A stretch of DNA of 64,000 nucleotides from Flexilinea sp. Lineage in GTDB: Bacteria > Chloroflexota > Anaerolineae > Anaerolineales > Anaerolineaceae. Made by a program: the position numbers and the translations under genes. Every line of letters starts with the position of its first letter. Position 1 is the stretch's first letter. The notes under the pieces are model-generated. The model did not search any database. It saw only the letters and a program-made list of their open reading frames with translations, and was not told the origin of the DNA. This document shows positions 5,470 to 62,819 of the stretch, piece after piece. Location of the stretch: contig JAPKMT010000012.1 of NCBI GenBank assembly GCA_026645735.1, forward strand, positions 1 through 64,000. The letters run 5' to 3'.

Positions 5470-5591
5470 CAGTAGTTCGAGATATGAAAAAAATCTTTGT
5501 TGTTGAATTGTTTTTGCGTTTCGCGCAAAAACAATTCAACAACATAATTTCTCTTTCAATTCGCAAAGCCTATTCATATTTTAAATTGTTG
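5470..5591. repeat. intergenic palindromic repeat, copy 1
   Basis: Ends CAGTAGTTCGA (5470) and AAATTGTTG (5591) are diverged family termini. The central hairpin has perfect 21-nt arms at 5498-5518 and 5524-5544 with a 5-nt loop. This copy has GAATTG/CAATTC in the arm where most copies have GTGTTG/CAACAC, changed on both sides. It lies in the divergent gap between two GT-C-like genes. Confidence 0.85.
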
Positions 5592-5673
5592 AAATATTGG
5601 ATGGCAGCCAGCCGAATTGTCCATATATTGGTAAGATTATAAGATCAAAGTATTAATTAATAACCAGGCAGAA

Positions 5674-7374
5674 ATGATGATACATCATACCAAATCAGAC
5701 AACATTCTACATTGCATACATACCTTTTTTCTCCAACTTATTAAAGATTATGGGTGGATTTTCCTGTTTTTTATTGTTGGAATCGGATCCATTGTATTTT
5801 CTTTCGGAAAAAATTTTCTGAAGATACCTGGCGATTTGGGAGATGCCAGATTTAATAACTATATTCTGGAACATTTCTTTCAATGGATTATTCGTCGCGA
5901 GCCGGATTATTGGAGTGCTCCGATGTTCTATCCATATCCATTAGCAACCGCCTTTAGTGATAATCTCCTGGGATCGGCTCCATTTTATGCTGCGATTCGA
6001 ATATTAGGATTCAGCCGAGAGACTGCTTTTCAGGGATGGTTTCTGTTGGGATTTATGTTGAATTATTCTGTTACGGCTAGTGTGTTAAAGAAGGAGAATT
6101 TGAAATCACTGCCGGTTGCAGTCGGAGCGTTTTTCTTCACATTTGGACTTCCCATGTTAGCACAGGAAGGCCACCCGCAGTTGATATACCGGTTTTGTAT
6201 ACCGGCTGCGTGCTCCTTTTTATACAGCTTTTCAAGAAAAGCGGATCTGAAGAAAATCTTATTCCTGACGGTAGCGATTGTCTGGCAATTTTACCTGACA
6301 ATTTACATGGGTTTCTTTCTCGTGCTTTTGATCGGTGTGATGTTTTTCGTTATTCCGCTATCGAATTCATCAGGAAATTTCATCAAATTTTGGATTTTAC
6401 GAATCCTTTCCGCATGGGATAGCGCCAAAAGATCAGAAAAATTATGTTTTTTTGTCGGTTTGATTCTGCTCCTTGCAATTCTATCTCTGCTTTTTGCGCC
6501 TTATTTGCAGGTGACTAAACTTTACCATTTTTCAAGAGGGATTGATGAAATAAAAAATATGCTGCCCCGATTGTCCAGTTATTTTCTTTCGGATCATGCT
6601 GCCTTGTGGCGGTTCGGCATGAATAATTTCAAGGACCTTCCAATGCGGCATGAACATCAATTATTTCCAGGCCTGGCAGCAGCAAGTTTATTCGTAATTG
6701 GTTTGCTTTGGAGAAAATTTGCCGAAAAAGGTTCATTCCTGCAGGTTCATATAATCAGTCTTTTCATCATTTTTTTCATGACGTTAACTGTCAATGAAAA
6801 ATCGCTTTATTTCCTGATATTGAAAATTCCGGGATACAACAGCATCCGTGCTGTAACTCGTATTCAATTGGTGCTTATGTGGCCTTTAGCCGTCTATATT
6901 GCTTTTGTTACTGATCGAATTATGAGCTTGAATAGTCCCATTTTCCGGATCAAAGCAGCGCTTGGGTTATTAATTCTCCTTTTGCTTTCTGAATCAGTCT
7001 TTTTCACACATTCCTCATATTCAAAAATTGAAGGGCAGAAACGAATTGATTCACTGCGGAAAACGACAGAATATTCCTTGAAGAAGGCGAATATCCTGGA
7101 TCCGATATTGTTAATCCATGGGAAAGCTGGCGATCCGTGGTTTGTAACTGCTTTAGATGCGATGTTGACAGCACAGGAACTTAGCATCCCACTGATAAAC
7201 GGTTATTCAGGGAACGCTCCGCAATTTGGGTTTACAGAATCGATGCACAGTTGTCGGACACTCCCCGGCTCAGTGGAATCTTATATTGAAAAAGCAAATG
7301 AGTTCGTGGGTGATCCGGACCTTAATATTAAAAATCGAATTGTTTATGTTCGTTATGCGGAATGCGGATTGTAA
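5674..7374 (+). CDS. polytopic membrane protein, possible GT-C glycosyltransferase
   Basis: A 566-residue protein with roughly 11 hydrophobic spans and a short C-terminal soluble tail. The first extracytoplasmic loop contains GDLGDARFNNYILEHFFQW, an acidic loop in the place where GT-C enzymes carry their catalytic Asp, followed by YWSAPMFYPYP. Proteins of this build in Chloroflexota and Planctomycetes are usually annotated only as membrane proteins. It probably transfers or exports a sugar or lipid-linked unit at the outer face of the membrane, by analogy only. The start is one of two adjacent ATG codons. Palindromic repeats flank it on both sides. Confidence 0.6.
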   Translation: MMIHHTKSDNILHCIHTFFLQLIKDYGWIFLFFIVGIGSIVFSFGKNFLKIPGDLGDARFNNYILEHFFQWIIRREPDYWSAPMFYPYPLATAFSDNLLGSAPFYAAIRILGFSRETAFQGWFLLGFMLNYSVTASVLKKENLKSLPVAVGAFFFTFGLPMLAQEGHPQLIYRFCIPAACSFLYSFSRKADLKKILFLTVAIVWQFYLTIYMGFFLVLLIGVMFFVIPLSNSSGNFIKFWILRILSAWDSAKRSEKLCFFVGLILLLAILSLLFAPYLQVTKLYHFSRGIDEIKNMLPRLSSYFLSDHAALWRFGMNNFKDLPMRHEHQLFPGLAAASLFVIGLLWRKFAEKGSFLQVHIISLFIIFFMTLTVNEKSLYFLILKIPGYNSIRAVTRIQLVLMWPLAVYIAFVTDRIMSLNSPIFRIKAALGLLILLLLSESVFFTHSSYSKIEGQKRIDSLRKTTEYSLKKANILDPILLIHGKAGDPWFVTALDAMLTAQELSIPLINGYSGNAPQFGFTESMHSCRTLPGSVESYIEKANEFVGDPDLNIKNRIVYVRYAECGL

Positions 7375-7404
7375 TGATTCAAAATAAAAATGACCGACGA
7401 AAAT

Positions 7405-7515
7405 CAGTAATTCGAAACCGGTAGAAATCTTTAAAAAAATGTTGTTGTGTTGTTTTTGCGCTCCGCACAAAAACAACACAACAACAAATAATCCCTTCCA
7501 TAATTCGAATCGCTG
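7405..7515. repeat. intergenic palindromic repeat, copy 2
   Basis: Starts CAGTAATTCGAA (7405) and ends TTCGAATCGCTG (7515). Perfect 19-nt arms at 7440-7458 and 7468-7486 flank a 9-nt centre. The right end lies 33 bp upstream of the ftsK -10 box. Confidence 0.9.
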
Positions 7516-7544
7516 GCAAAAATTAGTTCTAATGTTCTATCTGA

Positions 7545-7553
7545 TGTTATACT
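7545..7553 (+). promoter_or_regulatory. extended -10 promoter of ftsK, leaderless
   Basis: TG-T-TATACT at 7545-7553 is an extended -10 box. Its last base is only 6 nt before the ATG at 7560, so the predicted +1 is the A of the start codon. There is no Shine-Dalgarno. Confidence 0.6.
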
Positions 7554-7559
7554 GTAATT

Positions 7560-10115
7560 ATGGCGTCAATTCAACCGAAAAAAAAAGTGAAGGCAAGTTA
7601 TCGCGGTGACAAGAAACCGTCCATGGCAGCCAGAAAAAAAGCTGCAACCACTGCTGCTCAACGCAACAAAAGAAATGCTTCCCATGCAGCATTAAGTGTT
7701 CGCTCAATCTTCAGTATTCTTGCTGATTTGATTGGTTTAATTCTTCTTTTTTCGGGTACCCTGATCATTTTCAGTTTGAAATTTCCGGATATGATTTCGT
7801 TAACCGGATGGTGCTCCCAGTTAACAATCTTTTACTCTGGAAAAAGTGCTTACCTGACAGGCTGTATTTTCATTTTAATTGGTTTATGGATACTGATCCT
7901 GCGCAGGATAAAAAAACCTTTTTCGTTTTCATGGAAAATTTTCTTTTTTTTGATTGTCGTCTATCAGTACGTTTTAGTCCTGATCCAGCATAAAACAAAT
8001 TCCAATTCGTTTGCATCTTATTCTGAATTGACAGGTGGATTTGCGGCCGACAAGATTGATGATGCGCTGAATGTCGCAGTCGGAAATACAGGATCCGTTT
8101 TGGTTTATGGATTTGCCGGTTTACTCTTGCTGTTAGTGGCCTGGTTATGGATTTCAAATTATTTTTCTTCCAGCCTGCATATTCAGCCTGCGTTTCTGAA
8201 TCCGCTGAAAAAGTTTCTGGGATCCTTTAATGAGAAATCACCCAGATCAGATTCTGTTCATTTGGATGAAACGATTGAAACAAATACAGAGCTCGCTTTT
8301 GATCTTCCGGATACTGAACTACCTTTCGGAGATGTGAAAAAGAAGAAATCTTCAGAAGTTCGGGATAAAAAGGATGGAACCAGATCCTTGGCAAATACAG
8401 AGACTGTCATTTCAAAAGGAGAAATCACAAAACCGGACGGCAAAAAGATTCTTGAAAAAGAAATTCAAACCCAAAAGAAAGTTGATCCACTACCTGAGAA
8501 AATTTTACCGGTGACTTTTTTAAAAAACTCGTTCAAACCTTCTTTGTCTGAACGATCGGGTAAACACGAAACTACTGCGAAAAATGAAGAATCAACAATA
8601 ACCTGGAGGTTACCGGTTACAGATGAAATTCTGGATCCCGTGAAAGCACGACATAATATTACTCCTGAAGATCCACACATCCTGGGACAAATTCAAAAAA
8701 TCGAACATGTATTGGATGCTTTTGATGCTCCAGGGAAGGTTGTCGATATTCAAATCGGACCTACTTTTACACAATACGGGATTGAACCCGGATTCATCGA
8801 ACGTGCAGATCGCAGGACTCGCGTACGTGTCAAACAGATCGAAAACGTAAAAAAAGACCTTGAAATGGCGTTATCTGTCAAACAACTGACGATCGAAGCG
8901 CCAATTCCCAACAAAACCTTTGTCGGGTTGCAGGTCCAAAACAAATTTCGTATCCCTGTCACCTTGCATGAAATCATTGAAAGTGATGTATTTCGGAAAA
9001 ATCGAAAAGGTTTGGGTATCGCATTAGGCAAAGATATTAATGGAGCGGTTTATGCCGCTGATTTAACGCGCATGCCTCACCTCTTGATTGCTGGCGCCAC
9101 AGGATCCGGCAAATCAGTGTGTCTGAATGCAATTTTAGTCTGTTTGTTGATGAATTACACACCGGATCAGTTGAAACTGGTGCTGATCGATCCGAAACGG
9201 GTGGAATTAACCGGTTATAACGGCATTCCGCATTTGATCACACCGGTCGTAACGGATGTAGAACAGGTTGGAAATGTTCTGCAATGGATACTGCGAGAGA
9301 TGGACATGCGCAATCTTCATTTTATGCAAACTGGTGTCAGAAATATTCAGGATTACAATCAAAAAAATCCTGACAAAATCCTGCCATATCTGGTGGTTGT
9401 AATTGATGAACTGGCTAATCTAATGATGGAAGCAGCTTCCGATATCGAAACCAGTATTACCCGTCTGGCTCAGACTGCACGGGCGATGGGAATTCACATC
9501 ATCGTGGCCACGCAGCGCCCATCCCGGGATGTTATCACCGGTACGATTAAGGGAAACCTTCCGTCACGAATTGCATTTGCAGTTGCAACGAATATTGATA
9601 GTCACGTGATTTTGGATCGAAGCGGTGCAGAGAACCTGTTCGGAAAAGGGGATATGTTTTTCATGTCTTCAGAAGACAGTAACTTGAAACGGCTTCAATG
9701 CGTATATGTGTCCGATGATGAAATTAAAAAACTGGTGGATTACTGGAAAAAGAATCCGCGGATCGGTGATGATCAGTCGGAAACGGAAAAAAGCGGAATT
9801 ACCCCTGTGACAGTGAGAACGAAACCGCAAATCAAGCAGGGAACATTGACACAATTACCGTTATTAAATGAAGATGTTTCAACAGTAAAAAAAGGGGATG
9901 ACCCGTTATTGGAAGAGGCCATTGCGATGGTTCGGAAACAAGGCCGTGCATCGGCAAACATGCTGGTCAGTCGTCTCAGTATTGGATTTACACGCGCTAA
10001 TAAACTGCTTTCACAAATGGAAGATTTGGGAATAATTAGTTCTCCCAATGCGAATCCGGCAATTCCCAGAGAGATTTTGGATTATGGTGAAAATGGCGCT
10101 CCCAATGAGGATTAA
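7560..10115 (+). CDS. ftsK: DNA translocase FtsK/SpoIIIE
   Basis: An 851-residue protein with a basic N-terminus, four membrane spans (about residues 50-200) and a charged Lys/Glu/Pro-rich linker (about 220-370). The RecA-like motor follows, with Walker A GATGSGKS at 512-519 and Walker B LVVVIDELANLM. A C-terminal winged-helix gamma domain (about 780-840, RLSIGFTRANKLLSQMEDLG) completes it. FtsK anchors at the division septum and pumps chromosomal DNA toward dif/KOPS-guided positions. All motor motifs look intact. The downstream methyltransferase starts 7 bp after the stop, so the two form an operon. Confidence 0.97.
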   Translation: MASIQPKKKVKASYRGDKKPSMAARKKAATTAAQRNKRNASHAALSVRSIFSILADLIGLILLFSGTLIIFSLKFPDMISLTGWCSQLTIFYSGKSAYLTGCIFILIGLWILILRRIKKPFSFSWKIFFFLIVVYQYVLVLIQHKTNSNSFASYSELTGGFAADKIDDALNVAVGNTGSVLVYGFAGLLLLLVAWLWISNYFSSSLHIQPAFLNPLKKFLGSFNEKSPRSDSVHLDETIETNTELAFDLPDTELPFGDVKKKKSSEVRDKKDGTRSLANTETVISKGEITKPDGKKILEKEIQTQKKVDPLPEKILPVTFLKNSFKPSLSERSGKHETTAKNEESTITWRLPVTDEILDPVKARHNITPEDPHILGQIQKIEHVLDAFDAPGKVVDIQIGPTFTQYGIEPGFIERADRRTRVRVKQIENVKKDLEMALSVKQLTIEAPIPNKTFVGLQVQNKFRIPVTLHEIIESDVFRKNRKGLGIALGKDINGAVYAADLTRMPHLLIAGATGSGKSVCLNAILVCLLMNYTPDQLKLVLIDPKRVELTGYNGIPHLITPVVTDVEQVGNVLQWILREMDMRNLHFMQTGVRNIQDYNQKNPDKILPYLVVVIDELANLMMEAASDIETSITRLAQTARAMGIHIIVATQRPSRDVITGTIKGNLPSRIAFAVATNIDSHVILDRSGAENLFGKGDMFFMSSEDSNLKRLQCVYVSDDEIKKLVDYWKKNPRIGDDQSETEKSGITPVTVRTKPQIKQGTLTQLPLLNEDVSTVKKGDDPLLEEAIAMVRKQGRASANMLVSRLSIGFTRANKLLSQMEDLGIISSPNANPAIPREILDYGENGAPNED

Positions 10116-14392: not shown

Positions 14393-14514
14393 CAGTAATT
14401 CGAATTTTGGAAAAGCCATTTGAGAAAAAAGAGAAAATTTGTTGTTGTGTTGATTTTGCACTCCGCGCAAAATCAACACAACAACAAATTTTCTCCTCAT
14501 ATTTCGAATCGCTG
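14393..14514. repeat. intergenic palindromic repeat, copy 3
   Basis: Starts CAGTAATTCGAA (14393) and ends TTCGAATCGCTG (14514). The arms are perfect over 29 nt (14431-14459 and 14467-14495) with a 7-nt loop. Here GATTTTGC/GCAAAATC replaces the usual GTTTTTGC/GCAAAAAC, changed on both arms. Confidence 0.92.
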
Positions 14515-34267: not shown

Positions 34268-34316
34268 ATCATAGCATATTATGTACAAATATGCAATTGT
34301 AATGCGTAATTGTACA
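34268..34316. promoter_or_regulatory. inverted TGTACAA/TTGTACA pair upstream of the second DUF4143 gene
   Basis: TGTACAA and TTGTACA lie in inverted orientation about 21 bp apart between 34268 and 34316, in the upstream region of the minus-strand ATPase gene. It could be a repressor site or chance in AT-rich DNA. Confidence 0.3.
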
Positions 34317-34319
34317 AAA

Positions 34320-34416
34320 TATCGAAATATGAGGAGGATTCTATGTTGTTGTGATGTTTTTGCGCTTTGCGCAAAAACATCACAACAATAAATATTTTCC
34401 GATTGCTTCGAATAGC
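34320..34416. repeat. intergenic palindromic repeat, copy 4
   Basis: Perfect 20-nt arms at 34346-34365 and 34369-34388 with a 3-nt TTT loop. The arm reads GTGATG/CATCAC where other copies have GTGTTG/CAACAC: a paired change. The left flank ATCGAAATATGAGG is the reverse complement of the usual right end, so this copy is probably inverted. The outer ends are diverged. The remaining gap to 34538 shows nothing recognisable. Confidence 0.8.
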
Positions 34417-34538
34417 AAGTCGATATTTTGGATTACTGCAATTGTACAATAAGCGTAAAACCAGCGTAAACGGAATTTTTACAATTGAATCGGAAAGATT
34501 ATAAATTTCGCATGAAATCGCTTTATGTTGAGCCCTGA

Positions 34539-35420: not shown

Positions 35421-36905
35421 ATGAAAGAAAAAATTATTTCAATAATTTTATTAATGATTTTGTTAATCCCTTCCGGTCATGCTTCAGGTATCAGTGAGAA
35501 TAGGTTCAGGGCGATTGCGCCTTCGTTCCTGGAGTGGTTTAGTAACGACTTAAGCGAATTTTCAGGGATGAAATCTGCCGGGATACCCAAAACTGAACCG
35601 GGAATCGATTCTGCCTTCTTATCGTATGCGGAGGCATTGTCCGGACAGGAACCGGTTGGCAGTTTTCAGACTTTTTCGAAAACTGAAACCGGTTTAATTC
35701 GGGATATTGATGGAATGCCGATGGTCTACATCCCCGAAGGTGAATTTACGATGGGAATTGATCGTGAAACGGTTGGAGGTTCTGATGAATGGTCTGTACC
35801 GGCGCATAACGTATACCTGGATTCTTACTGGATCGATCAATATGAAATAACCAATCGGCAATATCAAAAATGCGTTGCTGAGCAAGCATGTGAAAAACCC
35901 CCTGTTTATGATATTGCCAACGAATATTATGAAGAAAAGCAATATGAGAATTATCCTGTTACCACGATCTTCTGGGAACAGGCAAAAGTGTATTGCGAAT
36001 GGGTTGGTGCGTCTTTGCCTACTGAAGCGCAATGGGAAAAAGCTGCAAGAGGGATCGATGGAAGGAAATATCCATGGGGAGATGATTATGAATTTGAAGA
36101 TAGGGCAAATCATTGTAACGGTGATAAATGTCTCTTCCCGGATCCATGTAATGATGGATTTGAATTTACCGCGCCTGTAGGTTCTTATCAAAAAGGAGCA
36201 AGCCCATATGACGTTTTCGACATGACGGGAAATGTTGACGAATGGGTTATAGATTGGTTTGCGGAAGATTATTACAAAAATAGTCCTGACAAAAATCCGC
36301 AGGGACCTGAAAATGGCACTTATCATGGACTTCGAGGAGGGTCATGGGGAGATTCTCATGAGACTTTACAAATCTGGCGCCGGTCATGGAGTTCAGGTAC
36401 AGATAATGAGATTGGCTTCAGATGTGTTATGCCGGTCACAGATGCAAATGCCCGTCACTTACCGGAAGATCAGCCAGAATTAAAAAATCAGGATGAAATT
36501 GAAATTGAAGCTGCGAAGAAAGTTTTTCAGGCGCTCTATGGCTGTTTTAAATCCTATGTTTTTGATACGTTGAATCCCGATGAATTTAATACTGCGAATG
36601 GAAATAAGATCAGGCTTCTTGAACAAGACAAACCTCAACTATCAAAAAAGCTCAGTGAGGCTGATAAAGCGAATGGGGTTGTCTGGGAGAATTTTACAGG
36701 CCTGAAAACACTAGTCTATCATAACCTCTATAACACCGGTTGGGAATGGCATGACGTGAACCTTTTTACAAGATATTACCGCTATTATGAAGACGGGACG
36801 ATTCGAACATTGGTGTTTAAATCCGCAGTACAACCGGGCGAATGGATTGAGTATGGCGCCAAGTGTTATATGGATGATTTAGAGGCGATGATGCTGTATA
36901 AGTGA
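35421..36905 (+). CDS. secreted SUMF1/FGE-like domain protein
   Basis: 494 residues. A signal peptide (KEKIISIILLMILLIPSGHA) is followed by about 70 residues of linker. A formylglycine-generating-enzyme-type domain spans about 95-340: GMPMVYIPEGEFTMGIDRET, DSYWIDQYEITNRQYQKCV, LPTEAQWEKAARG, GNVDEWVIDWFAEDYYK, and the end RSWSSGTDNEIGFRCVMP. The C-terminal 150 residues form a separate domain I do not recognise (FTGLKTLVYHNLYNTGWEWH). Most bacterial homologues are not true sulfatase activators but carbohydrate-, peptide- or ligand-binding scaffolds. No sulfatase lies nearby, and the paired catalytic cysteines of FGE are not evident. Confidence 0.8.
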   Translation: MKEKIISIILLMILLIPSGHASGISENRFRAIAPSFLEWFSNDLSEFSGMKSAGIPKTEPGIDSAFLSYAEALSGQEPVGSFQTFSKTETGLIRDIDGMPMVYIPEGEFTMGIDRETVGGSDEWSVPAHNVYLDSYWIDQYEITNRQYQKCVAEQACEKPPVYDIANEYYEEKQYENYPVTTIFWEQAKVYCEWVGASLPTEAQWEKAARGIDGRKYPWGDDYEFEDRANHCNGDKCLFPDPCNDGFEFTAPVGSYQKGASPYDVFDMTGNVDEWVIDWFAEDYYKNSPDKNPQGPENGTYHGLRGGSWGDSHETLQIWRRSWSSGTDNEIGFRCVMPVTDANARHLPEDQPELKNQDEIEIEAAKKVFQALYGCFKSYVFDTLNPDEFNTANGNKIRLLEQDKPQLSKKLSEADKANGVVWENFTGLKTLVYHNLYNTGWEWHDVNLFTRYYRYYEDGTIRTLVFKSAVQPGEWIEYGAKCYMDDLEAMMLYK

Positions 36906-36941
36906 GAACCATGTTTCAGATTTTCGGTAGGTTTATAAATC

Positions 36942-36993
36942 CATTTTCTTTGGAACGTAACAAGGGCGGAGCTTGCCATCAACAAAGAAAATG
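36942..36993 (+). other. inverted repeat before the lipoprotein gene
   Basis: CATTTTCTTTG (36942-36952) and CAAAGAAAATG (36983-36993) form an 11-bp stem around 30 nt, between the SUMF1 gene and the lipoprotein gene. There is no T run, so it is not a standard terminator. A processing or leader hairpin is possible. Confidence 0.4.
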
Positions 36994-37062
36994 CAGCCTG
37001 TTTTGAGGCAAATTACCGGTTGCTTCCGAAAAAAAATTGCCGGTCAGTTCAGGGTGGTATCG

Positions 37063-38871
37063 ATGAAAAAAGCATTCGCGCTATTGTTCCTCATAATATT
37101 ATTCTTTGCCATGACCGGCTGTGGACTCTCTCCTGGATTGATGCGGCAGACCAATGAAGCGATCATTGATGAAACTGTCTTAAGCGTTCCAACCGGGACT
37201 CCTTATCTGACATATACTGCACAACCAACCTACACACTTCCTCCCACGCTGACCTCGCTGCCAACTTATACGACCATACCTACTTATACGGCTCTTCCCA
37301 CTTATACATTCCAGCCAACCCGGACGCCAAAGCCCTCCTATACACCTTTTCCAACAAATACGAAGCAGTTTACCTATACACCTTTACCTACGGGCACCGC
37401 ACAGCACACATACACGCCTTTTCCGACTGATACAATGCAGCCTGCATATACCCTTCCACCAACTTATACGTTTGAACCGACCCTGACACCAAAGCCTTCC
37501 TATACACCTTTCCCAACAAACACGAAGCAGTTTACCTATACACCGTTACCTACAAACACCGTTCAGCAGACATATACGCCATTACCGACAAATACAATAC
37601 AACCTGCTTATACCCTTTTCCCGACTTATACAATTGAACCGACCAAAACTCCCATACCGATGCCCACTTCGATTTTTTCATCAATGAGCGTGGATATTGA
37701 TTCCTTTTTCAATCAGGGAGGCAATTCTTCCGGAAACAAAGGTTTAGAATCGGTAGGACTGATAGATCACCTCTATCTCGCAGGCTCGAATACACTTCAG
37801 AATATTAATGTCGGGTTTTTATATCAGGATTTCAAAAACCTGATTATGAGCGCTCAAAATTTACTCGATTTTTGGGATACTTTTAATTTCGAAACAATCG
37901 AGACGGATTTTAGTAATTTTTCTAACGAATTCATCCGGCAGTTGGCGATTGAAGAATTTCCGGGGGAATTAATCAAGTTCATTTTTACTATCGGACAATC
38001 GTTAACAATTCCGCAAAATTCAGCATATCAGGCCAGCAACAATTTTTATCTGACAATCAGTGAAAATGAATATATGTATTTCCCTGAATATTCCATTGTA
38101 ATTGAAGGAGAGGATATCTTTTTCTATAATCTTGAGGGTGAAAAAATTGGAAAAATAATAAAAGAATACTCCCCGGACAAACCGGATGAAATCTCTTTTA
38201 TGATTGAAAGTTTTTTGAATGAAATAACGTATGAACTGCAAATGGTGTCAAAAGATTCAGAATTATGCATGTTTATCGACACAGATAAGGTTTTTTCATT
38301 AAAAATAGATTCTGCTGTAAAAGCAGTTACTTTATTGGATGTCCTATCCGACACACAATTGACAGTGTCATTTGATCCCGAATTACATACCATTACCTTT
38401 GCAAATCCCGGAAACGGATTATTAAATACGGTTGAAATATTCCTTGATAAACAGAAAAAGAAAATTTCAGTGAACTTCTTATATGAGAACCTTTTTTTCC
38501 TTACTTTTGCTGATCAATCAAGAATTCTTTTGGGAGTTCCTGATCAGATTTATCTTATTACTTTCGATGATGAAAATCATCAAATTCATTTCCTGCCTGG
38601 TTCGAATAAATATGCATCTTTCGATATCTCTTTTTCGGATCAGTCAGATTTGGTTTCCTTAACATCCGACTTATATGGAAAGAACGATGAAAATTTATAT
38701 TCAATAAAATTCGATAAAGAAAAATCAGCTCTTTCCTTTTTTGTTGGAGATTCTTTGGGGGGAGGCATTACTTTTAACAAAAAAAGCGAAGAAATCATTC
38801 TGTCTGATGGAATATCCGCAACAGTTATTAATAATGAATGGTTTGATAATTTGATAAATGGTTCGTTTTGA
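37063..38871 (+). CDS. lipoprotein with PTxTxx hexapeptide stalk
   Basis: 602 residues from the ATG at 37063 (MKKAFALLFLIILFF), after AGGGTGG; an upstream in-frame ATG would bury the signal peptide. The lipobox AMTGC predicts lipid attachment. Residues about 40-205 are a stalk of some 25 hexapeptides of pattern PTxTxx, rich in Thr and Pro and likely extended and possibly O-glycosylated. The remaining 400 residues are rich in short beta strands and match no family I know. The stalk contains a 162-nt (9-hexapeptide) duplication. Such a stalk would hold the C-terminal domain away from the cell surface. Confidence 0.75.
   Translation: MKKAFALLFLIILFFAMTGCGLSPGLMRQTNEAIIDETVLSVPTGTPYLTYTAQPTYTLPPTLTSLPTYTTIPTYTALPTYTFQPTRTPKPSYTPFPTNTKQFTYTPLPTGTAQHTYTPFPTDTMQPAYTLPPTYTFEPTLTPKPSYTPFPTNTKQFTYTPLPTNTVQQTYTPLPTNTIQPAYTLFPTYTIEPTKTPIPMPTSIFSSMSVDIDSFFNQGGNSSGNKGLESVGLIDHLYLAGSNTLQNINVGFLYQDFKNLIMSAQNLLDFWDTFNFETIETDFSNFSNEFIRQLAIEEFPGELIKFIFTIGQSLTIPQNSAYQASNNFYLTISENEYMYFPEYSIVIEGEDIFFYNLEGEKIGKIIKEYSPDKPDEISFMIESFLNEITYELQMVSKDSELCMFIDTDKVFSLKIDSAVKAVTLLDVLSDTQLTVSFDPELHTITFANPGNGLLNTVEIFLDKQKKKISVNFLYENLFFLTFADQSRILLGVPDQIYLITFDDENHQIHFLPGSNKYASFDISFSDQSDLVSLTSDLYGKNDENLYSIKFDKEKSALSFFVGDSLGGGITFNKKSEEIILSDGISATVINNEWFDNLINGSF
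37230..37660 (+). repeat. hexapeptide-coding repeats with a 162-nt higher-order duplication
   Basis: An 18-nt unit (PTxTxx) is repeated throughout. A larger block with TPKPSYTPFPTNTKQFTYTP occurs twice, its DNA starting near 37324 and 37486, 162 nt apart, showing expansion by unequal exchange. Confidence 0.8.
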
Positions 38872-39048
38872 TTGGCCTTTATGTAAATCATGTGAACAAC
38901 GTGAGCGATCTTGGCAGATGAGGCTTCTGATTAGAATTTGTTATTTTCATTGGCTGTAACTGTTTAACAATCTTTTTTCAAAACTTTTTTAGACCGATTA
39001 ATCCGGATTCTTTTTCTGATTTTTTTGTCGGACAATAAGGAGAATTCT

Positions 39049-42000
39049 ATGAAAAAGAGATGCTTTTTCTTCATTCCATACATTTTTGTGATTCTTTTTC
39101 TGACAGGATGTGGACCATCCAACGAGTCAATTCAAAAAACAAATGAGATGATCATCGAAAAGACCGTTGAAAAAATCCCTGCATACACTCCTTATCCAAT
39201 CGCCACCATTCGACCCACCTTTACAAAATATCCAACTCACACTGCGAATCCGACCCATACTGCTTTCCCAACGCATACGGTATTACCCACCTACACAAAA
39301 ATAGCGACCGGAACTTTTCAGTTTACTTTTACCCCGCAGCCAACCGATACAACTTACCCGACCAGTATACCGCTCCTGACATATACAAAATTACCGACAA
39401 ATACGGCTCAACCGGCCAATACATCTTTCCCGACACATACCGCAATGCCTACTTACACAAAAATCCCAACTGGAACTGACCAATTTACCAGCACGCCTTT
39501 GACGGTTTTTACCGTTTATCCGACCAATACACCTTATGCAGTTTTTACAAAACTGCCAACAAGCACTCCTCGGGCTACTTATACATTTCTGCCAACTTAT
39601 ACACCTTTTCCAACATTTACAGAAATACCAACGACGACGTCGACACCGTCCAAAACACCACAACCAACTTTGACACCAACCCTGACGCATACTGCTACCA
39701 ATACTGCAACCTCCACCTCGACAAATACCCTGACACCTGTTCCGCCTACTTCCACAGCCACAGCAACGCCGGAAGCATCGAATACTCCCACTTTGGGAAT
39801 TGGTTCCACCCGCATACGTAAAGAAGACGGGATGACGATGGTGTATGTTCCGGCAGGGGAATTTGAAATGGGATCCGATAAAGATTGGTGGTCTGATGAA
39901 CAACCGGCGCATAGGGTATATCTGGATGAGTATTGGATTGATCGGACAGAAGTGACCAACGAGCAATATGAGAGCTGTGTTGCAGCAGGTAGCTGCACAG
40001 AACCAATGAGATTAGACTCATATTCCCGAAGGGATAGTTATTATGGAAACCGTTTATATGCAGATTACCCGGTGATCTATGTGGACTGGAACCAGGCGGC
40101 TGCCTATTGTGTGTGGGCAGGTGGGCGGCTGCCGACCGAAGCGGAGTGGGAAAAAGCTGCCCGTGGAACGGATGGAAGGATTTATCCCTGGGGAGATACA
40201 ATTGATAAAACCCGGGCAAATTATAACGGAAATGTAGGAGACACAACCTCAGTAGGCAGCTATCCGGCAGGAGCCAGTCCGTACGGTGCTTTGGATATGG
40301 CAGGAAACGTCTTTGAATGGGTGTCGGACTGGTATGTTGAAGATTATTACGATATCTCACCCGAACAGAATCCATCCGGGCCGGAAATGGGGGAATCCCG
40401 CATGCCACGGGGAGGTTCTTGGTACAGTGAGGATTACGAATCCTGGTCGACGTATCGCGGTAGGTACTATAAACCGTACAGGTTTCTCAATGTCGGGATT
40501 CGTTGTGCTTTCTCATCGTCAATGACGTCCGAGTCCGAGAAATCAAAAACACTGTCCAAAACGCCACAACCAACGAAAACACCTACGATGAGAGTCATAC
40601 CAGCACCGACGATAGTCTATGGGATCGTTTATGTCCCGAATGATGTTGGTTTACTGATCAGGCAAAAGCCGGGAAATGATGGAACTGTTATGCAGAGTCA
40701 AAAAAATGGATCCCGCTTGGAGATAATCGGTGAGAACACAGAGACTATAGACGGAATCACCTGGATAAACGTTCGCACGAACAACGGAGTGGAGGGATGG
40801 GTAACTCAATCCACCATCCGAATATTGTCGTCTCGCATACGTGAAATAGATGGGATGACGATGGTGTATGTACCAGCGGGGGAATTTGAAATGGGATCCT
40901 ATTTTTTTGGTTATTCAGATGAACAACCGGTACATTCGGTAAATCTGGATGCGTATTGGATCGACCAGACAGAAGTGACCAACGGACAGTATGAGCGCTG
41001 TGTTGCAGCAGGTATCTGCTCAGCACCAGAGTATTCAGGCTCAAATACACGGGACAGTTATTATGACAACAGTACATATGCGGATTACCCGGTAATCCAT
41101 ATGAACTGGGACCAGGCGGCTGCCTATTGTGCGTGGGCGGGGGGCAGGCTGCCAACCGAAGCAGAATGGGAAAAAGCTGCCCGGGGAACGGATGGAGGAA
41201 CGTTTAGGTACTATCCATGGGGAGATGAATTTGACGGAACAAAACTAAATTATTGCGATAAGAATTGTTCCAAGGATTGGAAAGATGAAAAGTATGATGA
41301 TGGATATGTAGATACGGCCCCGATAGGGAGTTATCCAGCGGGTGCCAGCCCGTATGGAGCGCTGGACATGGTGGGAAATGTCTGGGAATGGGCTTCGGAC
41401 TGGTATGCCGAAGATTATTATAAGAATTCTCCAGACCGGAATCCAATCGGACCTCAATCCGGGGAGTATCGTGTGCTTCGGGGCGGCTCGTGGGCCAGTC
41501 GTGATGACCTTACCCGCTCGGCTTGCCGCGGCGGGGAACTCCCGTCTAACTTGCTTACCGATGCCGGGTTCCGTTGCGCTTTCGCTGTTGACCCGATTTC
41601 ATCCTCTCCAATTACAGTCACCGAAAGTCCGGACGTCACTTTACTGGCAGACGATGATGAAGCAGATTGGACAGACCAGAACATACTGAAATCTGATAAA
41701 CCGGATGGATTTTATTTGGTGGGTACTGAAATTGAACCGGGTGTATGGAAAACTGAAGATGGTAAGTCAAAATGTTACTGGAAAATAACTGATATTAAAG
41801 GAAATATCATTTCAAATTACCTGGGCGCTGGCGGTGGAACAATTTTTATCGATGAAAACGCTTATCAAATTGAAACTATAAATTGCGGAACAATCATATA
41901 TCTTGGAGATCCATCAAAAATAATTCCTGATGAAAGCATTCGGAAATCTGATAAACCGGATGGATTTTATTTGGTGGACACTGAAATTGAGCCGGGTGTA

Positions 42001-42231
42001 TGGAAAACTGAAGAAGGTAAGTCAAAATGTTACTGGAAAATAACTGATAATAAAGGAAATATCATTTCAAATTACCTGGGCGCTGGCGGCGGAACAATTT
42101 TTATCGATGAAAACGCTTATCAAATCGAAATCCTGAATTGCGGAATAACCACATATATTGAAACATATCAGACTGATCCAACCACGCCCGCTGATGACAA
42201 AACACACGATACTAGAGGGATAAACCGATGA
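39049..42231 (+). CDS. lipoprotein with two SUMF1 domains, SH3 domain and duplicated C-terminal module
   Basis: 1060 residues from the ATG at 39049, with AAGGAG 6 nt upstream. The signal ends in lipobox FLTGC (Cys21). A PTxTxx stalk spans about 45-250. SUMF1 domain 1 (about 260-490: [20 protein letters not shown]) is followed by a bacterial SH3 domain (about 525-595, [13 protein letters not shown]...GVEGWV). SUMF1 domain 2 spans about 598-848. The end holds two 85-residue-spaced copies of a small module ([20 protein letters not shown] ... CYWKITD ... NCG), a cell-surface module known from actinobacterial and Chloroflexi secreted proteins. It probably binds cell wall or glycans at the surface, and no catalytic role can be shown. 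It follows the previous lipoprotein by 177 bp. Confidence 0.85.
41689..42165 (+). repeat. 255-nt tandem duplication in the coding sequence
   Basis: Units starting at 41689 and 41944 (AAATCTGATAAACCGGATGG) are almost identical over most of their length, including silent positions, implying a recent duplication of the C-terminal module. Confidence 0.9.
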
Positions 42232-43385: not shown

Positions 43386-43503
43386 CTGTTGTTCGAAAAA
43401 TTGAATGGGCTTATGAAAACGTGATTGTGGATATTGTTATGTTGTTTTAAACGAAGCTCAAAACAACATAACAAAAAAAACCTTCTCAACGTTCGGATTG
43501 CTG
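43386..43503. repeat. intergenic palindromic repeat, copy 5
   Basis: Diverged ends (TTCGAAAAATTGAA near 43392 and GTTCGGATTGCTG ending 43503). The hairpin arms are perfect over 15 nt (43434-43448, 43460-43474) but the GCGC closing part is lost and the 11-nt loop differs. The right end touches the TATACT (43504-43509) that probably drives the HAD gene. Confidence 0.75.
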
Positions 43504-48458: not shown

Positions 48459-48503
48459 ATAAAACAGTTTGAAATATTACGATGGTATTAAATTAATTCT
48501 TCC

Positions 48504-48518
48504 CATATTTCGAATCAT
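48504..48518. repeat. isolated right end of the palindromic repeat
   Basis: CATATTTCGAATCAT directly precedes the left end of copy 6, as if two copies had been adjacent and one had lost everything but its right terminus. Confidence 0.6.
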
Positions 48519-48641
48519 CAGCAATTCGAAATTTGGAAAAGCCTTATGAAAAAAAAGAGAAAACTTGTTGTTGTGTTGTTTTTGCGCGGAGCGCAAAAAC
48601 AACACAACAACAAATATTCCCTCTAATAATTCGAATCGCTG
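48519..48641. repeat. intergenic palindromic repeat, copy 6
   Basis: Starts CAGCAATTCGAA (48519) and ends TTCGAATCGCTG (48641). Perfect 23-nt arms at 48565-48587 and 48591-48613 with a 3-nt GGA loop. This is the best representative of the family. Confidence 0.95.
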
Positions 48642-49501: not shown

Positions 49502-49624
49502 CAGTAATTCGTAATTTGGAAAAGCTGTCAGAGAAAAAAAAGAAAACTTGTTATTGTGTTGTTTTTGCGCTTTGCGCAAAAACAACACAATAACAAATAA
49601 TTCTCCCCATATTTCGAATTGCTG
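49502..49624. repeat. intergenic palindromic repeat, copy 7
   Basis: Starts CAGTAATTCG (49502) and ends TTCGAATTGCTG (49624). Perfect 23-nt arms at 49548-49570 and 49574-49596 with a TTT loop. One position (TTGTTATTG with CAATAACAA) differs from copy 6 on both arms. Confidence 0.95.
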
Positions 49625-50476: not shown

Positions 50477-50593
50477 CAGTAATTCGAAATTTGGAAAAGC
50501 CTTTTGAGAAAAAAGTGTAAATCTGTAGTGTTTTTGAGTTTAGCGCAAAAACACTACAACTACAATTATTTTTTTTCATATTTCGAATCGCTG
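50477..50593. repeat. intergenic palindromic repeat, copy 8, arm deletion
   Basis: Starts CAGTAATTCGAA (50477) and ends TTCGAATCGCTG (50593). The intact right arm extends to CTACAACTACAA, but the left arm lacks about 7 nt, leaving 13 paired bases (50524-50536, 50546-50558). It lies between convergent genes. Confidence 0.88.
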
Positions 50594-50619: not shown

Positions 50620-51183
50620 CTATTTCGTGTTCTTATCAATTTCTTCACGCGCCCGGGCAATCAAATCACTGGCATCATCTACTCTGGAAACGCGTGATTT
50701 TTCGGATACCGCTGATTCCACATCATCGATGATACTGCCAGAATTTTTTTCGATTACATCACGTGCTTTTGAAATTAAATCGCTGGCATCATCCACTCTG
50801 GAAACGCGTGATTTTCCGGATACTGCTGATTCTACATCATCAACAGCATTCCCCAGGTTCTTCTGAATTTCTTCACGTGCTCTCGAAATAATATCACTGG
50901 CATCATCGACTCTGGAAACACGTGATTTTTCGGATACCGCGTCTTCTACTTTATCTGTAATATCTTTTATCGATGGGATGTTGAAAGAATTTCCCGGTTT
51001 GGTTGATGTCGAATTTGTGGATGAGGACCTTCTTCTTGAATCCATTAAGTATCCTGCAACCAATCCGCCGATCAGACCATAAAGCAGCAATGTATTTTCA
51101 TCAATACTGGTGACAACGTATCGCAGCAGGTAACCAGCTACAATACCAATAATGCTGTAGATTGCTAATATATTTTTTTTCAT
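50620..51183 (-). CDS. membrane-anchored protein with three 38-residue repeats
   Basis: 187 residues from the ATG at 51183 (MKKNILAIYSIIGIVAGYLL), with an upstream GGAG; a longer frame reaching into repeat copy 9 is not coding. Two short membrane segments (about 4-22 and 30-47) are followed by a Ser/Thr-rich linker and three near-identical 38-residue units (SRVSRVDDASDLISRAREEI plus about 18 residues), each predicted as helix-turn-helix rod. The DNA units are 114 bp apart and very similar, so the array is recent. The repeat recalls apolipoprotein- or YtxH-like amphipathic rods. Function unknown. Confidence 0.7.
   Translation of the reverse strand: MKKNILAIYSIIGIVAGYLLRYVVTSIDENTLLLYGLIGGLVAGYLMDSRRRSSSTNSTSTKPGNSFNIPSIKDITDKVEDAVSEKSRVSRVDDASDIISRAREEIQKNLGNAVDDVESAVSGKSRVSRVDDASDLISKARDVIEKNSGSIIDDVESAVSEKSRVSRVDDASDLIARAREEIDKNTK
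50630..50960 (-). repeat. three 114-bp tandem coding repeats
   Basis: The segment GCATCATCxACTCTGGAAAC begins at 50672, 50786 and 50900, exactly 114 bp apart, with near-identical DNA between the units. Confidence 0.92.
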
Positions 51184-51264: not shown

Positions 51265-51370
51265 CAGCGATTTGAAATAAAAAAAAAGAATTATTGTAGT
51301 TGTGGTGTTTTTGCGCTTCGCGCAAAAACACCACAACTACAATAATTCCTTTCTTTATTCGAAACACATG
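51265..51370. repeat. intergenic palindromic repeat, copy 9
   Basis: Starts CAGCGATTTGAA (51265), ends near TTCGAAACACATG (51370). The hairpin is perfect over 29 bp (51288-51316 with 51320-51348) and has a 3-nt TTC loop. Its arms differ from copy 6 at several places (GTAGTTGTGGTG), always on both sides. Confidence 0.93.
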
Positions 51371-51502
51371 TCTATATTTCAAACCGATAGCAAAATTCAT
51401 AGCGATTCAGAAAACAAGCCTACAGGAAGCTTATAATTTCAATCTGGAGATTTGAAATTTGAACTGGATTTTCGATGAAAGGTGAAATGATTGATCATAA
51501 TG

Positions 51503-53245: not shown

Positions 53246-53283
53246 CAGTAATTTGAAAAGCTTATCCTTTTTTCGAATTGCTG
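53246..53283. repeat. hairpin-less remnant of the palindromic repeat
   Basis: CAGTAATTTGAAAAGCTTAT is followed within 38 bp by TTCGAATTGCTG: both family ends are present and the whole central hairpin is gone. Confidence 0.8.
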
Positions 53284-57363: not shown

Positions 57364-57507
57364 CAACCGCAATTTCGAATTCGGAACGGATTCTCAAATA
57401 AAGCGAGTAAATAGGTTATTACTTTATCTTTTCGCGAAAGGTAAAAACAATACAACAACAAGTTTTCTCTTTTTTCGAAAAACGCCTTTCCAAATTTCGA
57501 ATTGCTG
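57364..57507. repeat. decayed palindromic repeat, copy 10, inverted
   Basis: The right end in this strand (CCAAATTTCGAATTGCTG, ending 57507) is the reverse complement of the usual left end, so the copy is inverted. One hairpin arm survives (GTAAAAACAATACAACAACA); the partner has mutated and no longer pairs well. Confidence 0.7.
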
Positions 57508-59913: not shown

Positions 59914-60094
59914 TTTTTTTTACCTTGGTTGTTTCCAACGGATATTATTCGGATTGTTCACCTTTGAGATATTATTCTATAACTGTGGAATCAGTTCCTT
60001 TGATTTCACAGACCGACTTTGTGGTTTTCAATGGCACTGTTTTTGTTTAAAATTATAGTTGATTATTGAGGCTGTTTCATATGCATCCAGTTTT

Positions 60095-60195
60095 CAGCCA
60101 ATAATTCGAAATATGAAAAGAATTCATTGTTGTTCTTGTGGGTTTGCGCTTCGCCCAAAAACCATAAGAACAACAAATTTTCTCTCTTCATTGAT
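60095..60195. repeat. intergenic palindromic repeat, copy 11
   Basis: Left end CAGCCAATAATTCGAAATATG (60095 on); the right end is decayed. The arms 60127-60148 and 60155-60176 pair with a few mismatches (TTGTTGTTCTTGTGG against CCATAAGAACAACAA). Elsewhere in the 59914-60355 gap I see only possible promoter sequences for the two divergent genes. Confidence 0.75.
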
Positions 60196-60355
60196 AGAGC
60201 AAGTTATTATTGCGACTTGCAGGGTTTTTCCACTATTCAAAGGACGCGTTTATGGATTGGAATCAGCGGAAGAGGAAATAACTGGAACGGCGATCGGAAA
60301 CAATCACTTTAACAAAGTGCATGACTTATTTTTACGTTTATGATCGGGAGAATCG

Positions 60356-61987
60356 ATGCTTATTTTGGAAGATATTCATAAACGATTTGGAGATCGGCAA
60401 ATTTTGAGGAATGTAAGTTTTCATGTTCAATCTGGTGAACGCGCAGCTATCCTCGGCAGTAATGGAACCGGGAAAACAACAATATTCAAGTTGATTATTG
60501 GAAAAGAAAAGCCGGATCAGGGAACGATCCGTTTTTCTCCATCCGATTTAAACTGGTTTTATATGCCCCAATCCAGAAGTTTTCGTGATTTGGAAACCAT
60601 CGCTGATTTTCTGTTGATGAATGGGGAAAGTATTGAAACTTTACAGGAAAAACTCGAAATACTTTCACAAAGAATGGAAGAAACACCAGATGATCTCAGT
60701 TTACACGCCACCTATGATTCTGTCTTGTCAAGATTATTTCAGGCATTCTCCAATGAGGGAAGTTCGGAATCGCTGCTTGCTTTATTTGGATTGAGTCAAT
60801 TCGACTTTCAAACTCCGATTCGACAGTTGAGTGGCGGTCAAATAGCCAGACTGTCCTTGGCAGCCGCATACCAATCAAAAGCGCGCCTCCTTCTGCTCGA
60901 TGAGCCGACCAATGATTTGGACGAACAGATGTTAAGGTGGCTGGAGAATTATTTTTGTTTATTTTCCGGCGCCATATTATACGTTTCTCATGACAGAGCT
61001 TTTATCAATCAAACTGCAACGAAAATACTGGAACTGGATGCTATAAACCATACCATTAAAGAATATATGGGAAACTATGAGGATTGGCTGGCAAAGAAAA
61101 AGTTCGAAAGGGAATCCGAATTGGCTGCATGGAATCGACAGCAAACAGAAATTTCACAGTTAAAAGATGCTGCGTTACGAATTCGAAGCTCTACAAAAAT
61201 GCACCGGGGAGGGAAAACCGACAGTGGCGACAAATTAGCTGCAGGTTTTTTCATGAATCGCAGCAGAAAAACCATTAAAAGAGCTGTTCAGATTGAAAAT
61301 CGGTTGAATCAGTTGATGACTGAAGATAAAAAAGAGAAGCCTGTACAGCGATGGAAGATGAAGATCGATTTTTTGAATCCTGGATATTCCGGGGACATGG
61401 TTTTGTCCCTGCAAAACATGTCCGTCGGTTACGATGGAGTACCTTTGATTTCAGACATCAATCTGGATCTGACAAGAGGCCAAACTTGTGTTTTGATTGG
61501 TCCCAACGGATGCGGGAAGACAACATTACTCAAGACAATCACGGGTGAGCTACAGCCAATCAGCGGTATCCTTAAACTGGGTGTAAATATGCGCATAGGT
61601 AAAATAGCACAGATATTGGACAGATCTCTATTTCAAAGCAATGCGTTAGAGTCGATTCAGAAACTTTCAAAGTTGAATGAGACGGAAGTTCGGAGATTTC
61701 TTTCCTATTATCTGTTTTTTGGAGATGATGTCTATATACCTTCTGAAAGATTATCAAATGGGCAATGCGCCCGGTTAGCTCTGGCTTCATTTGCCGTTCA
61801 GGGGAAAAATTTCCTGGTCATGGATGAGCCATTAAATCATCTCGATATTGAATCAAGAGAACAATTTGGAGAGGCATTGCTACAATTTCAGGGAACTGTG
61901 CTGGCTGTAGTCCATGACCGATATTTTTCAGATCAGGTTGCAGATATTATCTGGGAAATAAAAGATCATAAAATTTTGGTTTTATAA
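60356..61987 (+). CDS. ABC-F family ATPase
   Basis: 543 residues with two ATPase cassettes and no membrane part. Cassette 1: Walker A GSNGTGKTT, signature LSGGQIARLSLA, Walker B LLLLDEPTNDL. A charged linker follows (about 240-320). Cassette 2: GPNGCGKTT, degenerate signature LSNGQCARLALA, VMDEPLNHLD. ABC-F proteins act on the ribosome, in translation factor or antibiotic-protection roles. The closest type (EttA, Uup, antibiotic resistance) cannot be decided here. GGGAG precedes the ATG. Confidence 0.92.
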   Translation: MLILEDIHKRFGDRQILRNVSFHVQSGERAAILGSNGTGKTTIFKLIIGKEKPDQGTIRFSPSDLNWFYMPQSRSFRDLETIADFLLMNGESIETLQEKLEILSQRMEETPDDLSLHATYDSVLSRLFQAFSNEGSSESLLALFGLSQFDFQTPIRQLSGGQIARLSLAAAYQSKARLLLLDEPTNDLDEQMLRWLENYFCLFSGAILYVSHDRAFINQTATKILELDAINHTIKEYMGNYEDWLAKKKFERESELAAWNRQQTEISQLKDAALRIRSSTKMHRGGKTDSGDKLAAGFFMNRSRKTIKRAVQIENRLNQLMTEDKKEKPVQRWKMKIDFLNPGYSGDMVLSLQNMSVGYDGVPLISDINLDLTRGQTCVLIGPNGCGKTTLLKTITGELQPISGILKLGVNMRIGKIAQILDRSLFQSNALESIQKLSKLNETEVRRFLSYYLFFGDDVYIPSERLSNGQCARLALASFAVQGKNFLVMDEPLNHLDIESREQFGEALLQFQGTVLAVVHDRYFSDQVADIIWEIKDHKILVL

Positions 61988-62058
61988 ACTGATAATCGTT
62001 GAAACGAAACAGACCTTTTTTCGTATATGAAATGTATCTATTTGGAAAGGAATAACAC

Positions 62059-62547
62059 ATGAATATTGAAACCATCATTTCAAAGATCAAGAACGCACTT
62101 GGAGAAGGTGTTGAAAAGGTGTCCGATGAGGTTGAAAAAAATCAGGTTTTCGAAAAATTCGAAGATTCTGATGACAAGGTCGCGAAAATCCTGGATGATG
62201 CCGGAAAAGCTTTGACCAGCTTGTTTGATACAATCGCGGATAAAGCAGAGCCGATGATCAAAAAGACCAAAGCTAAGATTTATGAAGGGATTTTTGAGGA
62301 GTATCGAAAGGATGGAAGTCCTTATGGAGAAACCCATGATGGGTTTATGCAATGGGTGGATGAGCACGAAACCGAAATCCGGGAGAAAGTTGATGATGGT
62401 ATTACCAAAACGCGTGAAACGATTCTTTCCGGTGTGAAAAAGACTCAGGAATATATCAACCGCGAAGTTTCGAAAAAGGAAAAGCCGTCCGATTCAGTTG
62501 TTGATGGATCCTCTGTGACTGACCAGAAATCATCCGATAAAGAATAA
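62059..62547 (+). CDS. small helical protein of unknown function
   Basis: 162 residues, strongly charged and predicted almost wholly helical (SDEVEKNQVFEKFEDSDDKV, KLLFDTIADKAEP-like amphipathic segments). The tail is Ser/Lys/Asp-rich and disordered. No signal peptide, no motif. A good ribosome site (GGAAAGGAA) and a strong terminator support it as a real gene. It recalls the repeat rods of the 50620 protein in composition only. Confidence 0.65.
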   Translation: MNIETIISKIKNALGEGVEKVSDEVEKNQVFEKFEDSDDKVAKILDDAGKALTSLFDTIADKAEPMIKKTKAKIYEGIFEEYRKDGSPYGETHDGFMQWVDEHETEIREKVDDGITKTRETILSGVKKTQEYINREVSKKEKPSDSVVDGSSVTDQKSSDKE

Positions 62548-62594
62548 AATAATTCGGTTCCTCGAATAAAACGAGAGCTTTCATTATTATGAAT

Positions 62595-62637
62595 AATCTG
62601 CGGTTTACATCAGAAAGTAAACGGCAGATTTTTTTTT
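62595..62637 (+). terminator. terminator after the helical-protein gene
   Basis: AATCTGCGGTTTAC (62595-62608) pairs with GTAAACGGCAGATT (62617-62630), one mismatch, 8-nt loop, followed by a run of T's to 62637. Confidence 0.9.
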
Positions 62638-62781
62638 GGATTTCTTGTGACCTGAGTAAATGAAGTAAAACAAGAAAAGGAGGTAAATTCTTTCAAAGAT
62701 TTAAAGAATATTTTATATTTCCTAAATGTTTTCTCTGGATTATTACAGACCAGATGGTTTATCAAAAAACTGATTCTATGA

Positions 62782-62819
62782 CAGCCATTCGAAATTCAAG
62801 CCCATATTTCAAATTGATG
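62782..62819. repeat. hairpin-less remnant of the palindromic repeat
   Basis: CAGCCATTCGAAATTCAAG is followed by CATATTTCAAATTGATG within 38 bp. The central hairpin is absent. The rest of the 62638-63148 gap holds a 9-bp inverted repeat (TGCAGATTT at 62969 with AAATCTGCA at 63040) and nothing else I can recognise. Confidence 0.75.

Follow-up and report, generated by a model that had tools for sequence, protein, structure and literature searches.

Bacterial miniature inverted-repeat transposable elements (MITEs) are short and non-coding, carry inverted ends, make a target duplication and outnumber their autonomous partners (PMC10969869). ERIC elements, for example, occur at 30 to 711 copies per genome (PMC10969869), the cyanobacterial MITE Nezha has been proposed to be moved by ISNpu3-like elements, and RUP, BOX and SPRITE of pneumococcus are likewise short intergenic MITE-like repeats with stems (PMC3049150). 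Here we analyze a family of palindromic elements of about 123 bp in a 64,000-nt stretch (the window) of contig JAPKMT010000012.1 from a Flexilinea genome (G000). The family has all of the general MITE features listed above and differs in its new sequence, in the paired evolution of its hairpin arms and in its number, about 615 copies when the density in our sample is extrapolated to 3.35 Mb. The reading that we favor, with a probability of about 85%, is that these elements are MITEs served by a DDE-type transposase like that of an insertion sequence in Flexilinea flocculi, and that their central hairpin is an extra module whose two arms evolve in pairs.

A high-copy family with 9-bp target duplications

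An nhmmer profile built from 33 copies, three of them from the window, matched 153 non-overlapping copies in an 834,295-bp sample of G000, which comprised the window and six of the larger contigs (one minus its last 2.7 kb) and is not random. These copies, 104 of which span at least 109 of the 123 model positions, make up 1.9% of the sampled bases, and the reversed sequence of the sample gave 0 matches. Across the whole genome, the end pattern CAGYRATTCGAAATWTG was matched 970 times with at most 2 mismatches and a control pattern 0 times. The original prediction had described intergenic palindromic elements from the window and proposed a genome-wide search, which finds the family abundant elsewhere. 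Inverted end pairs peak at 122–124 bp (74 of 164 pairs), 123 bp being typical, and shorter forms reach down to 38 bp. The repeats are non-autonomous transposable elements that form a high-copy MITE family: they are short and without coding capacity, have CAGYRATTCGAAATWTG ends as terminal inverted repeats, are flanked by a duplication of fixed length (9 bp) and share 17–20 bp of their ends with an autonomous element in F. flocculi, though not in their own genome.

The duplications were scored at 77 end pairs lying 121–125 bp apart in the sample, a set that includes chance pairs such as 5990-6111 inside a gene. At 35 of the 77 pairs, the 9-bp flanks agreed with at most one mismatch, whereas 200 shuffles averaged 0.49 such pairs and never exceeded 4; 21 pairs agreed exactly, and mean flank identity was 66% versus 29% in the shuffles. 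Judged by the at-most-one-mismatch count, all other lengths between 3 and 13 stayed within their own shuffle maxima. Sharing inverted CAGYRATTCGAAATWTG ends and flanked by 9-bp duplications, the elements were thus inserted by a transposase whose staggered cuts lie 9 bp apart. Duplications of at least 8/9 also flank short forms, both in G000 (6 of 39 pairs of 46–100 bp and 2 of 14 pairs of 25–45 bp) and in F. flocculi TC1 (G010; 13 of 75 and 1 of 23, respectively). Because the six duplicated G000 forms of the longer class (59–77 bp) have inner stems of at most 11 bp and so lack the hairpin, the ends alone seem to suffice for insertion, and the hairpin would be an additional module.

Palindromic, intergenic and present in high copy, the elements also recall REP/BIME sequences moved by a Y1 transposase (RAYT), and the original prediction had pointed to a REP-associated enzyme of this type. 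A search for Y1_Tnp (PF01797) gave no match in any of the four genomes searched (G000, G010, G003 and G008), whereas 5 of 14 control genomes were positive, and 9-bp duplications are present; Y1/HUH elements are not known to make a target duplication. We regard a RAYT/REP origin as having next to no chance of being correct and reject it.

In gene calls that were crude (82–89% of each contig called coding), 144 of the 153 sample copies are intergenic, at median distances of 107 bp from the left gene and 90.5 bp from the right. This placement, the strong stems and a T-rich tract seen by eye after the stem on one strand would suit hairpins that act as regulators or terminators, are retained for the benefit of the host and are under selection at the RNA level. 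Among the 140 copies with both neighbors, 76 lie in co-directional, 48 in divergent and 16 in convergent gaps, and intergenic bases, copies included, divide into 64%, 24% and 12%. The mild divergent excess (34% of copies versus 24% of bases) favors a host role, but convergent gaps show no excess (11% versus 12%), and in co-directional gaps the orientation is not clearly biased (43 same, 33 opposite); the copies do not look like terminators. RUP, BOX and SPRITE, in contrast, are over-represented between convergent genes (PMC3049150). A host role is also at odds with the patchy presence of the family in the genus and with the decay of stems with age and the single-change counts described below; we consider it very improbable. 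The original prediction had held that the elements must be mobilized in trans or be functional sites: the duplications, together with the F. flocculi insertion sequence with matching ends, support the first part, and neither position nor orientation supports the second.

Searched with the end pattern at up to 2 mismatches, 81 genomes yielded 970 ends in G000, 1,103 in G010, 299 in G003, 84 in G028, 26 in G008 and 21 in G040, with most others near background; the ends in G028 and G040 are mostly of a variant, CAGCAATTCTCAATATG. In G028 (L080, L081), CAGCAATTCTCAATATG end pairs lie 0.5–1.4 kb apart, one with unread bases between them, and many ends of this type occur close to contig ends. Among 396 members of the class, nine scattered genomes besides G000 had 10–53 matches with at most one mismatch, mostly of the CAGCAATTCCAAATATG type among the matches listed. 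At 16 Anaerolineae loci where two ends lie 111–310 bp apart, eight duplications of 9 bp were exact and one was 8/9; from genome to genome the interiors show no relationship, and long stems occur in several but not all of them. MITEs with such ends thus also occur in other Anaerolineae, around interiors of unrelated sequence.

A 795-kb portion of the F. flocculi genome holds 201 copies, 136 of them near full length. Both flanks are syntenic in this species for 84 of the 153 sample copies; judged by gap size, 16 of these sites look empty (mean 85 bits), 16 filled (63 bits) and 52 unclear, and a profile match was present in the F. flocculi gap at 6 of the 16 'empty' sites (none at 10) and at 12 of the 16 'filled' ones. 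Some insertions common to both species, such as those at the points of the window copies 49502 and 50477, look older than the split. One element with its short flanks is identical between G000 (C11:16225-16346) and G010 (C2:13541-13680), species that are 75–77% identical in the syntenic stretch compared, which reflects either recent exchange or assembly contamination.

The sequence family is new, although MITEs as a kind are already known. Among the copies of the window and of eight loci, none had an Rfam match at the gathering score: the window gave one tRNA only, and the eight loci gave only one riboswitch, outside the copy (a c-di-GMP-I riboswitch at L003:2115-2202, about 500 bp from a MITE copy). 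Among the papers listed on Flexilinea (part of the total) and on Chloroflexi with MITEs, no description of the family was found, and a literature search on the end sequence gave no paper. Within Rfam and the literature searched, whose scope did not extend to ISfinder or subscription papers, the statement that no such family has been described stands, and the same literature held no description of the likely helper enzyme or of the two-armed hairpin evolution.

A candidate helper transposase

A search of five relatives for DDE_Tnp_1 gave seven places in two genomes, one of which, in F. flocculi, sits between MITE-type ends (L101:821-2452; 1,632 bp). This insertion sequence has ends CAGCAATTCGAAATATG and CAGTAATTCGAAAAATG, an exact 9-bp duplication (GCATTCTGT) on both sides and an intact 446-aa open frame for a DDE-type transposase, which matches Pfam models below their curated cut-offs (DDE_Tnp_1_assoc, 20.6 bits; DDE_Tnp_1, 19.2 bits) and matches no NCBIfam model; its AlphaFold model had a mean predicted local distance difference test score (pLDDT) of 35 and was not used. 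It is the only end pair 1–4 kb apart with a duplication of at least 8/9 in the 795 kb of G010, and it supplies a candidate for the insertion sequence with matching ends that the original prediction had suggested looking for. No full insertion sequence with these ends was found in the 834-kb sample of G000, which contains no end pair 130 bp–12 kb apart with a duplication of at least 8/9. By eye, the likeness of the F. flocculi element to the MITE is confined to the terminal 17–20 bp, which makes the MITE a mimic of its ends rather than a plain deletion derivative.

Homologues of the transposase, 27–42% identical, were found in 13 plasmid records. Ends were examined at 16 homologous or fragmentary loci, some cut by contig edges and with the fragment L110 left out. 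At six of these loci, among them L101, CAGYAATT-type ends on both sides go together with an exact 9-bp duplication; one has both ends without a duplication, four have one recognizable end, and five have none. The six complete loci come from F. flocculi, Calothrix, Anabaena cylindrica, Nostoc edaphicum, Saccharobesus and the Anaerolineae genome G368. Five remote homologues in other bacteria thus combine CAGCAATT ends with exact 9-bp duplications, and the candidate parent belongs with these CAGCAATT/9-bp insertion sequences by homologous transposase, ends and duplication. Taking these sequence likenesses together, we infer that the MITEs are probably moved by a DDE-type enzyme of the sort that the F. 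flocculi insertion sequence (1,632 bp) encodes.

The combination of CAGCAATTC-like ends and a 9-bp duplication is diagnostic: it joins otherwise unrelated MITEs of several Anaerolineae and links them to insertion sequences in Anaerolineae, cyanobacteria and one gammaproteobacterium. With a candidate helper enzyme in hand, 1.9% of the DNA sampled from this Flexilinea genome is explained as one parasite family. One homologue, 37% identical to the transposase of the candidate parent, is named ISNCY-type in its RefSeq annotation, ISNCY standing for 'not classified yet'. ISMae2 has been named as an ISNCY subgroup (PMC11448079). The likeness to Nezha is that both are MITEs and that the present transposase has Nostocales homologues with 9-bp duplications; a 100-kb stretch of an Anabaena cylindrica plasmid yielded no MITE carrying the ends seen in cyanobacteria. 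Viral contigs gave 30 end-pattern matches and no transposase homologue. On a Methylomagnum plasmid (L115), a transposase homologue passes without a break into the reverse transcriptase gene of a group II intron, probably by intron insertion.

Paired hairpin arms and competing explanations

The central hairpin was aligned in 69 of 103 near-complete copies, those left out being mainly low-scoring or odd-sized, and a single structure with 17 pairs in the ends and 23 in the stem was applied. Changes on both sides occurred at 20 of the 23 stem pairs (107 cells; 94–95% of cells paired) but at only 5 of the 17 end pairs of the same copies (6 cells; 80% paired). Covariation values for the whole structure were reached by 0 of 500 shuffles, and slid partners gave 24–49 double-change cells versus 113; cells here are sequences, not events, and part of the covariation signal is inherited within subfamilies. 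Because the ends come from the same copies as the stems, they serve as an internal control, one that differs from the stem in arm distance and in separate enzyme binding. In a 25-copy subfamily, the stem had 17 complementary double, 16 single and 0 other double changes, whereas the ends had 0, 68 and 3, respectively. Across 83 stems with 3-nt loops, 158 complementary double changes compared to 82 single and 7 other double changes.

Single stem changes gave G-T pairs 26 times and A-C pairs 28 times among 107, and there is thus no sign of selection as RNA. Covariation is often read as proof of a functional RNA; here, it comes without a G-U preference and without a clear placement bias, a caution that it can arise in mobile DNA. 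Stem pairing falls with age, from a median of 22 to 17 of 23 pairs between the top and bottom score thirds in G000 and from 20.5 to 15 in G010. After insertion, copies would decay in place, most of them between genes.

Several results weigh against the reading that we favor. Mean flank identity lies slightly above the shuffle maximum at 8 bp (0.354 vs 0.346) and 10 bp (0.335 vs 0.323) as well, and exact empty sites are unreadable because the intergenic sequences of G000 and G010 are too diverged. Of the 14 genomes of the genus, one yielded the transposase, whereas G000 itself and 12 others did not; the G000 assembly is incomplete (86 contigs, 92% complete), and the gene may therefore be missing from it or lost. 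The G368 insertion sequence has only CAGCAATTCC in common with the MITEs of that genome. Within the class, a homologue was found in four of the 16 genomes that have such ends, two of the four having fragments only, and in 0 of 8 with 0–1 matches, a difference that points the right way on small numbers. The one DDE_Tnp_1 gene of the own genome (L071) is truncated at a contig edge and encodes a different transposase. For the hairpin, a test of spacer inversion on all 112 loops fell short of significance (p 0.23), with p 0.027 in one subfamily only (24 loops), and nine strictly orthologous G000/G010 sites had 5 paired and 36 single-arm stem changes (21 rows compared).

Some of these points fit an explanation in which the elements are MITEs of a different insertion sequence, lost or unassembled, that the F. 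flocculi element merely resembles. F. flocculi has one copy of its insertion sequence to 1,103 end matches, neither G000 nor G003 has any, and only 17–20 bp are common. The own ends of L071 are not visible because its upstream part lies beyond the contig edge, and on its downstream side there is only a MITE-like copy, at a distance of about 300 bp. But the same kind of ends with a 9-bp duplication recurs in F. flocculi and five homologues, and the only other long pair in the 795 kb of G010 (4,516 bp; 8/9) has no transposase recognizable by eye; we consider a different parent unlikely. That 4,516-bp pair, with ordinary-looking frames by eye, was discarded as a parent, and L071, as a truncated and different transposase, was set aside as the helper and kept open as a candidate.

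Returning to the favored reading, two processes could give its hairpin paired arms. Template switching between close inverted repeats homogenizes the arms and inverts the spacer (PMC8604942), and it has been proposed to maintain hairpins (PMC8794818); paired arm changes together with spacer inversion are what such homogenization predicts (PMC8604942, PMC8794818). Those studies concern yeast coding DNA and RNA genes, whereas here the subject is a mobile element family with a weak spacer test. Through switching, a polymerase would copy one arm from the other, which is the most likely cause of the paired evolution. As a close alternative, selection may keep the hairpin during amplification. Transposition may be efficient only for copies whose stem is sound, for instance because the extruded stem draws both ends together, and paired changes would then build up in the source lineage.

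Selection of this kind agrees with covariation that is strong between copies and weak at orthologous sites, with the long unrelated stems in MITEs of other genomes (L087, L084, L178-L181, L186, L187) and with the better stems of copies with higher profile scores. Against it, six hairpin-less forms of 59–77 bp and two of 38 bp have duplications of at least 8/9, showing that insertion can do without the stem, and some related MITEs lack a long stem (L184, L185, L188, L189, L191). We see selection on the hairpin as a genuine possibility that falls short of even odds. Upkeep of the hairpin after insertion looked good in single cases and was contradicted by the count at orthologous sites, and template switching in place is weakly supported. 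Weak spacer inversion, single-arm changes at orthologous sites and stem decay therefore place renewal mainly in spreading copies, or indicate selection on those copies; the two explanations are close to each other.

We put forward only tentatively, and as less likely than not, that the hairpin is a self-renewing module, a near-perfect palindrome in which template switching rewrites each 23-bp arm from its partner in spreading copies. If true, a constant structure would house a freely drifting stem, one genome would hold hundreds of parallel records of hairpin evolution, and several Anaerolineae lineages would have joined different hairpins to the same system of ends. The choice between template-switch correction and selection becomes testable on hundreds of natural copies.

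Copies in the window

The profile gave 11 non-overlapping matches in the window, equal in number to the copies of the original prediction and at or near its positions, with lower ends at 5470, 7405, 14393, 34322, 43392, 48519, 49502, 50477, 51265, 57412 and 60103. A repeat search grouped seven 123-nt copies and placed the remaining copies in overlapping subsets. A hairpin scan found stems of 13–37 bp (0–2 mismatches) with loops of 3–12 nt in 10 of the 11 copies and no such stem in the decayed copy that had been placed at 57364. The prediction that all copies lie between genes holds for 9 of the 11, with 48519 and 51265 overlapping crudely called frames that may have been given wrong ends. As predicted, copies (14393 and 34316) flank the ribosomal cluster, and the profile search of the window found none within it. 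Additional members are two 38-bp elements at 53246-53283 and 62782-62819 and a right-end remnant at 48491-48515.

Exact duplications flank two full copies. The one at 5470..5591 (minus strand; 122 bp; 60.6 bits) has a 21-bp perfect stem and the duplication AAATATTGG (9/9), and the one at 48519..48641 (plus strand; 129.1 bits) has a 23-bp perfect stem and the duplication TCGAATCAT (9/9). The central hairpin of the latter, defined by the scan and the alignment, occupies 48565..48613 (no strand) with 23-bp arms and a GGA loop, and beside this copy lies the remnant of another (48491..48515, plus strand), recognized from a direct-repeat family. Duplications of 8/9 flank a full copy with a decayed left end at 34316..34438 (minus strand; 68.9 bits over 34322-34438), where the score was obtained once the left border was shifted by 1 nt, a full copy a few bases past a called gene end at 49502..49624 (plus strand; 115.7 bits), which has an element at the same point in G010, and the 38-bp minimal element at 53246..53283 (no strand; ATGGAAAGT/ATGGGAAGT), in which two ends stand back to back without a hairpin module. 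The full copy at 14393..14514 (plus strand; 122 bp; 118.4 bits) has a 29-bp stem and a 7/9 duplication, and its syntenic gap in G010 is of empty size and without a profile match.

The remaining four elements tested had scores of 2–5 of 9. These are a 111-bp copy with a shortened left flank at 7405..7515 (plus strand; 81.7 bits; 5/9), for which G010 carries a copy in the same gap; a diverged copy with a 15-bp stem at 43386..43503 (plus strand; 26.4 bits over 43392-43503; 3/9); a 117-bp copy at 50477..50593 (plus strand; 91.9 bits; 2/9), at whose point the G010 element has a different, perfect 24-bp stem; and a doubtful 38-bp minimal element, two ends 38 bp apart, at 62782..62819 (no strand; 4/9 only). 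Three further copies are outside the duplication count because their ends are uncertain: a full copy with the longest stem (37 bp, 2 mismatches) at 51265..51389 (minus strand; 62.2 bits over 51265-51383), a decayed copy at 57367..57507 (minus strand; 56.0 bits over 57412-57507), whose left border was drawn from the repeat family and by eye, and a decayed copy at 60098..60210 (minus strand; 51.6 bits over 60103-60200), whose borders were set by eye.

Other repeats occur in the window. A perfect, loopless 56-bp palindrome at 978-1033 lies, by eye, 11 bp ahead of the start codon of a TetR-like frame and is possibly the operator of that regulator; one of its arms is matched with at most 5 mismatches in 26 at G010 C2:362002. 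Coding-type repeats spaced at 18 nt and 36 nt form runs over 37209-39620, adjoining repeated modules at 35798-42160, and three tandem copies of about 106–114 bp lie within a crudely called frame at 50629-50962.

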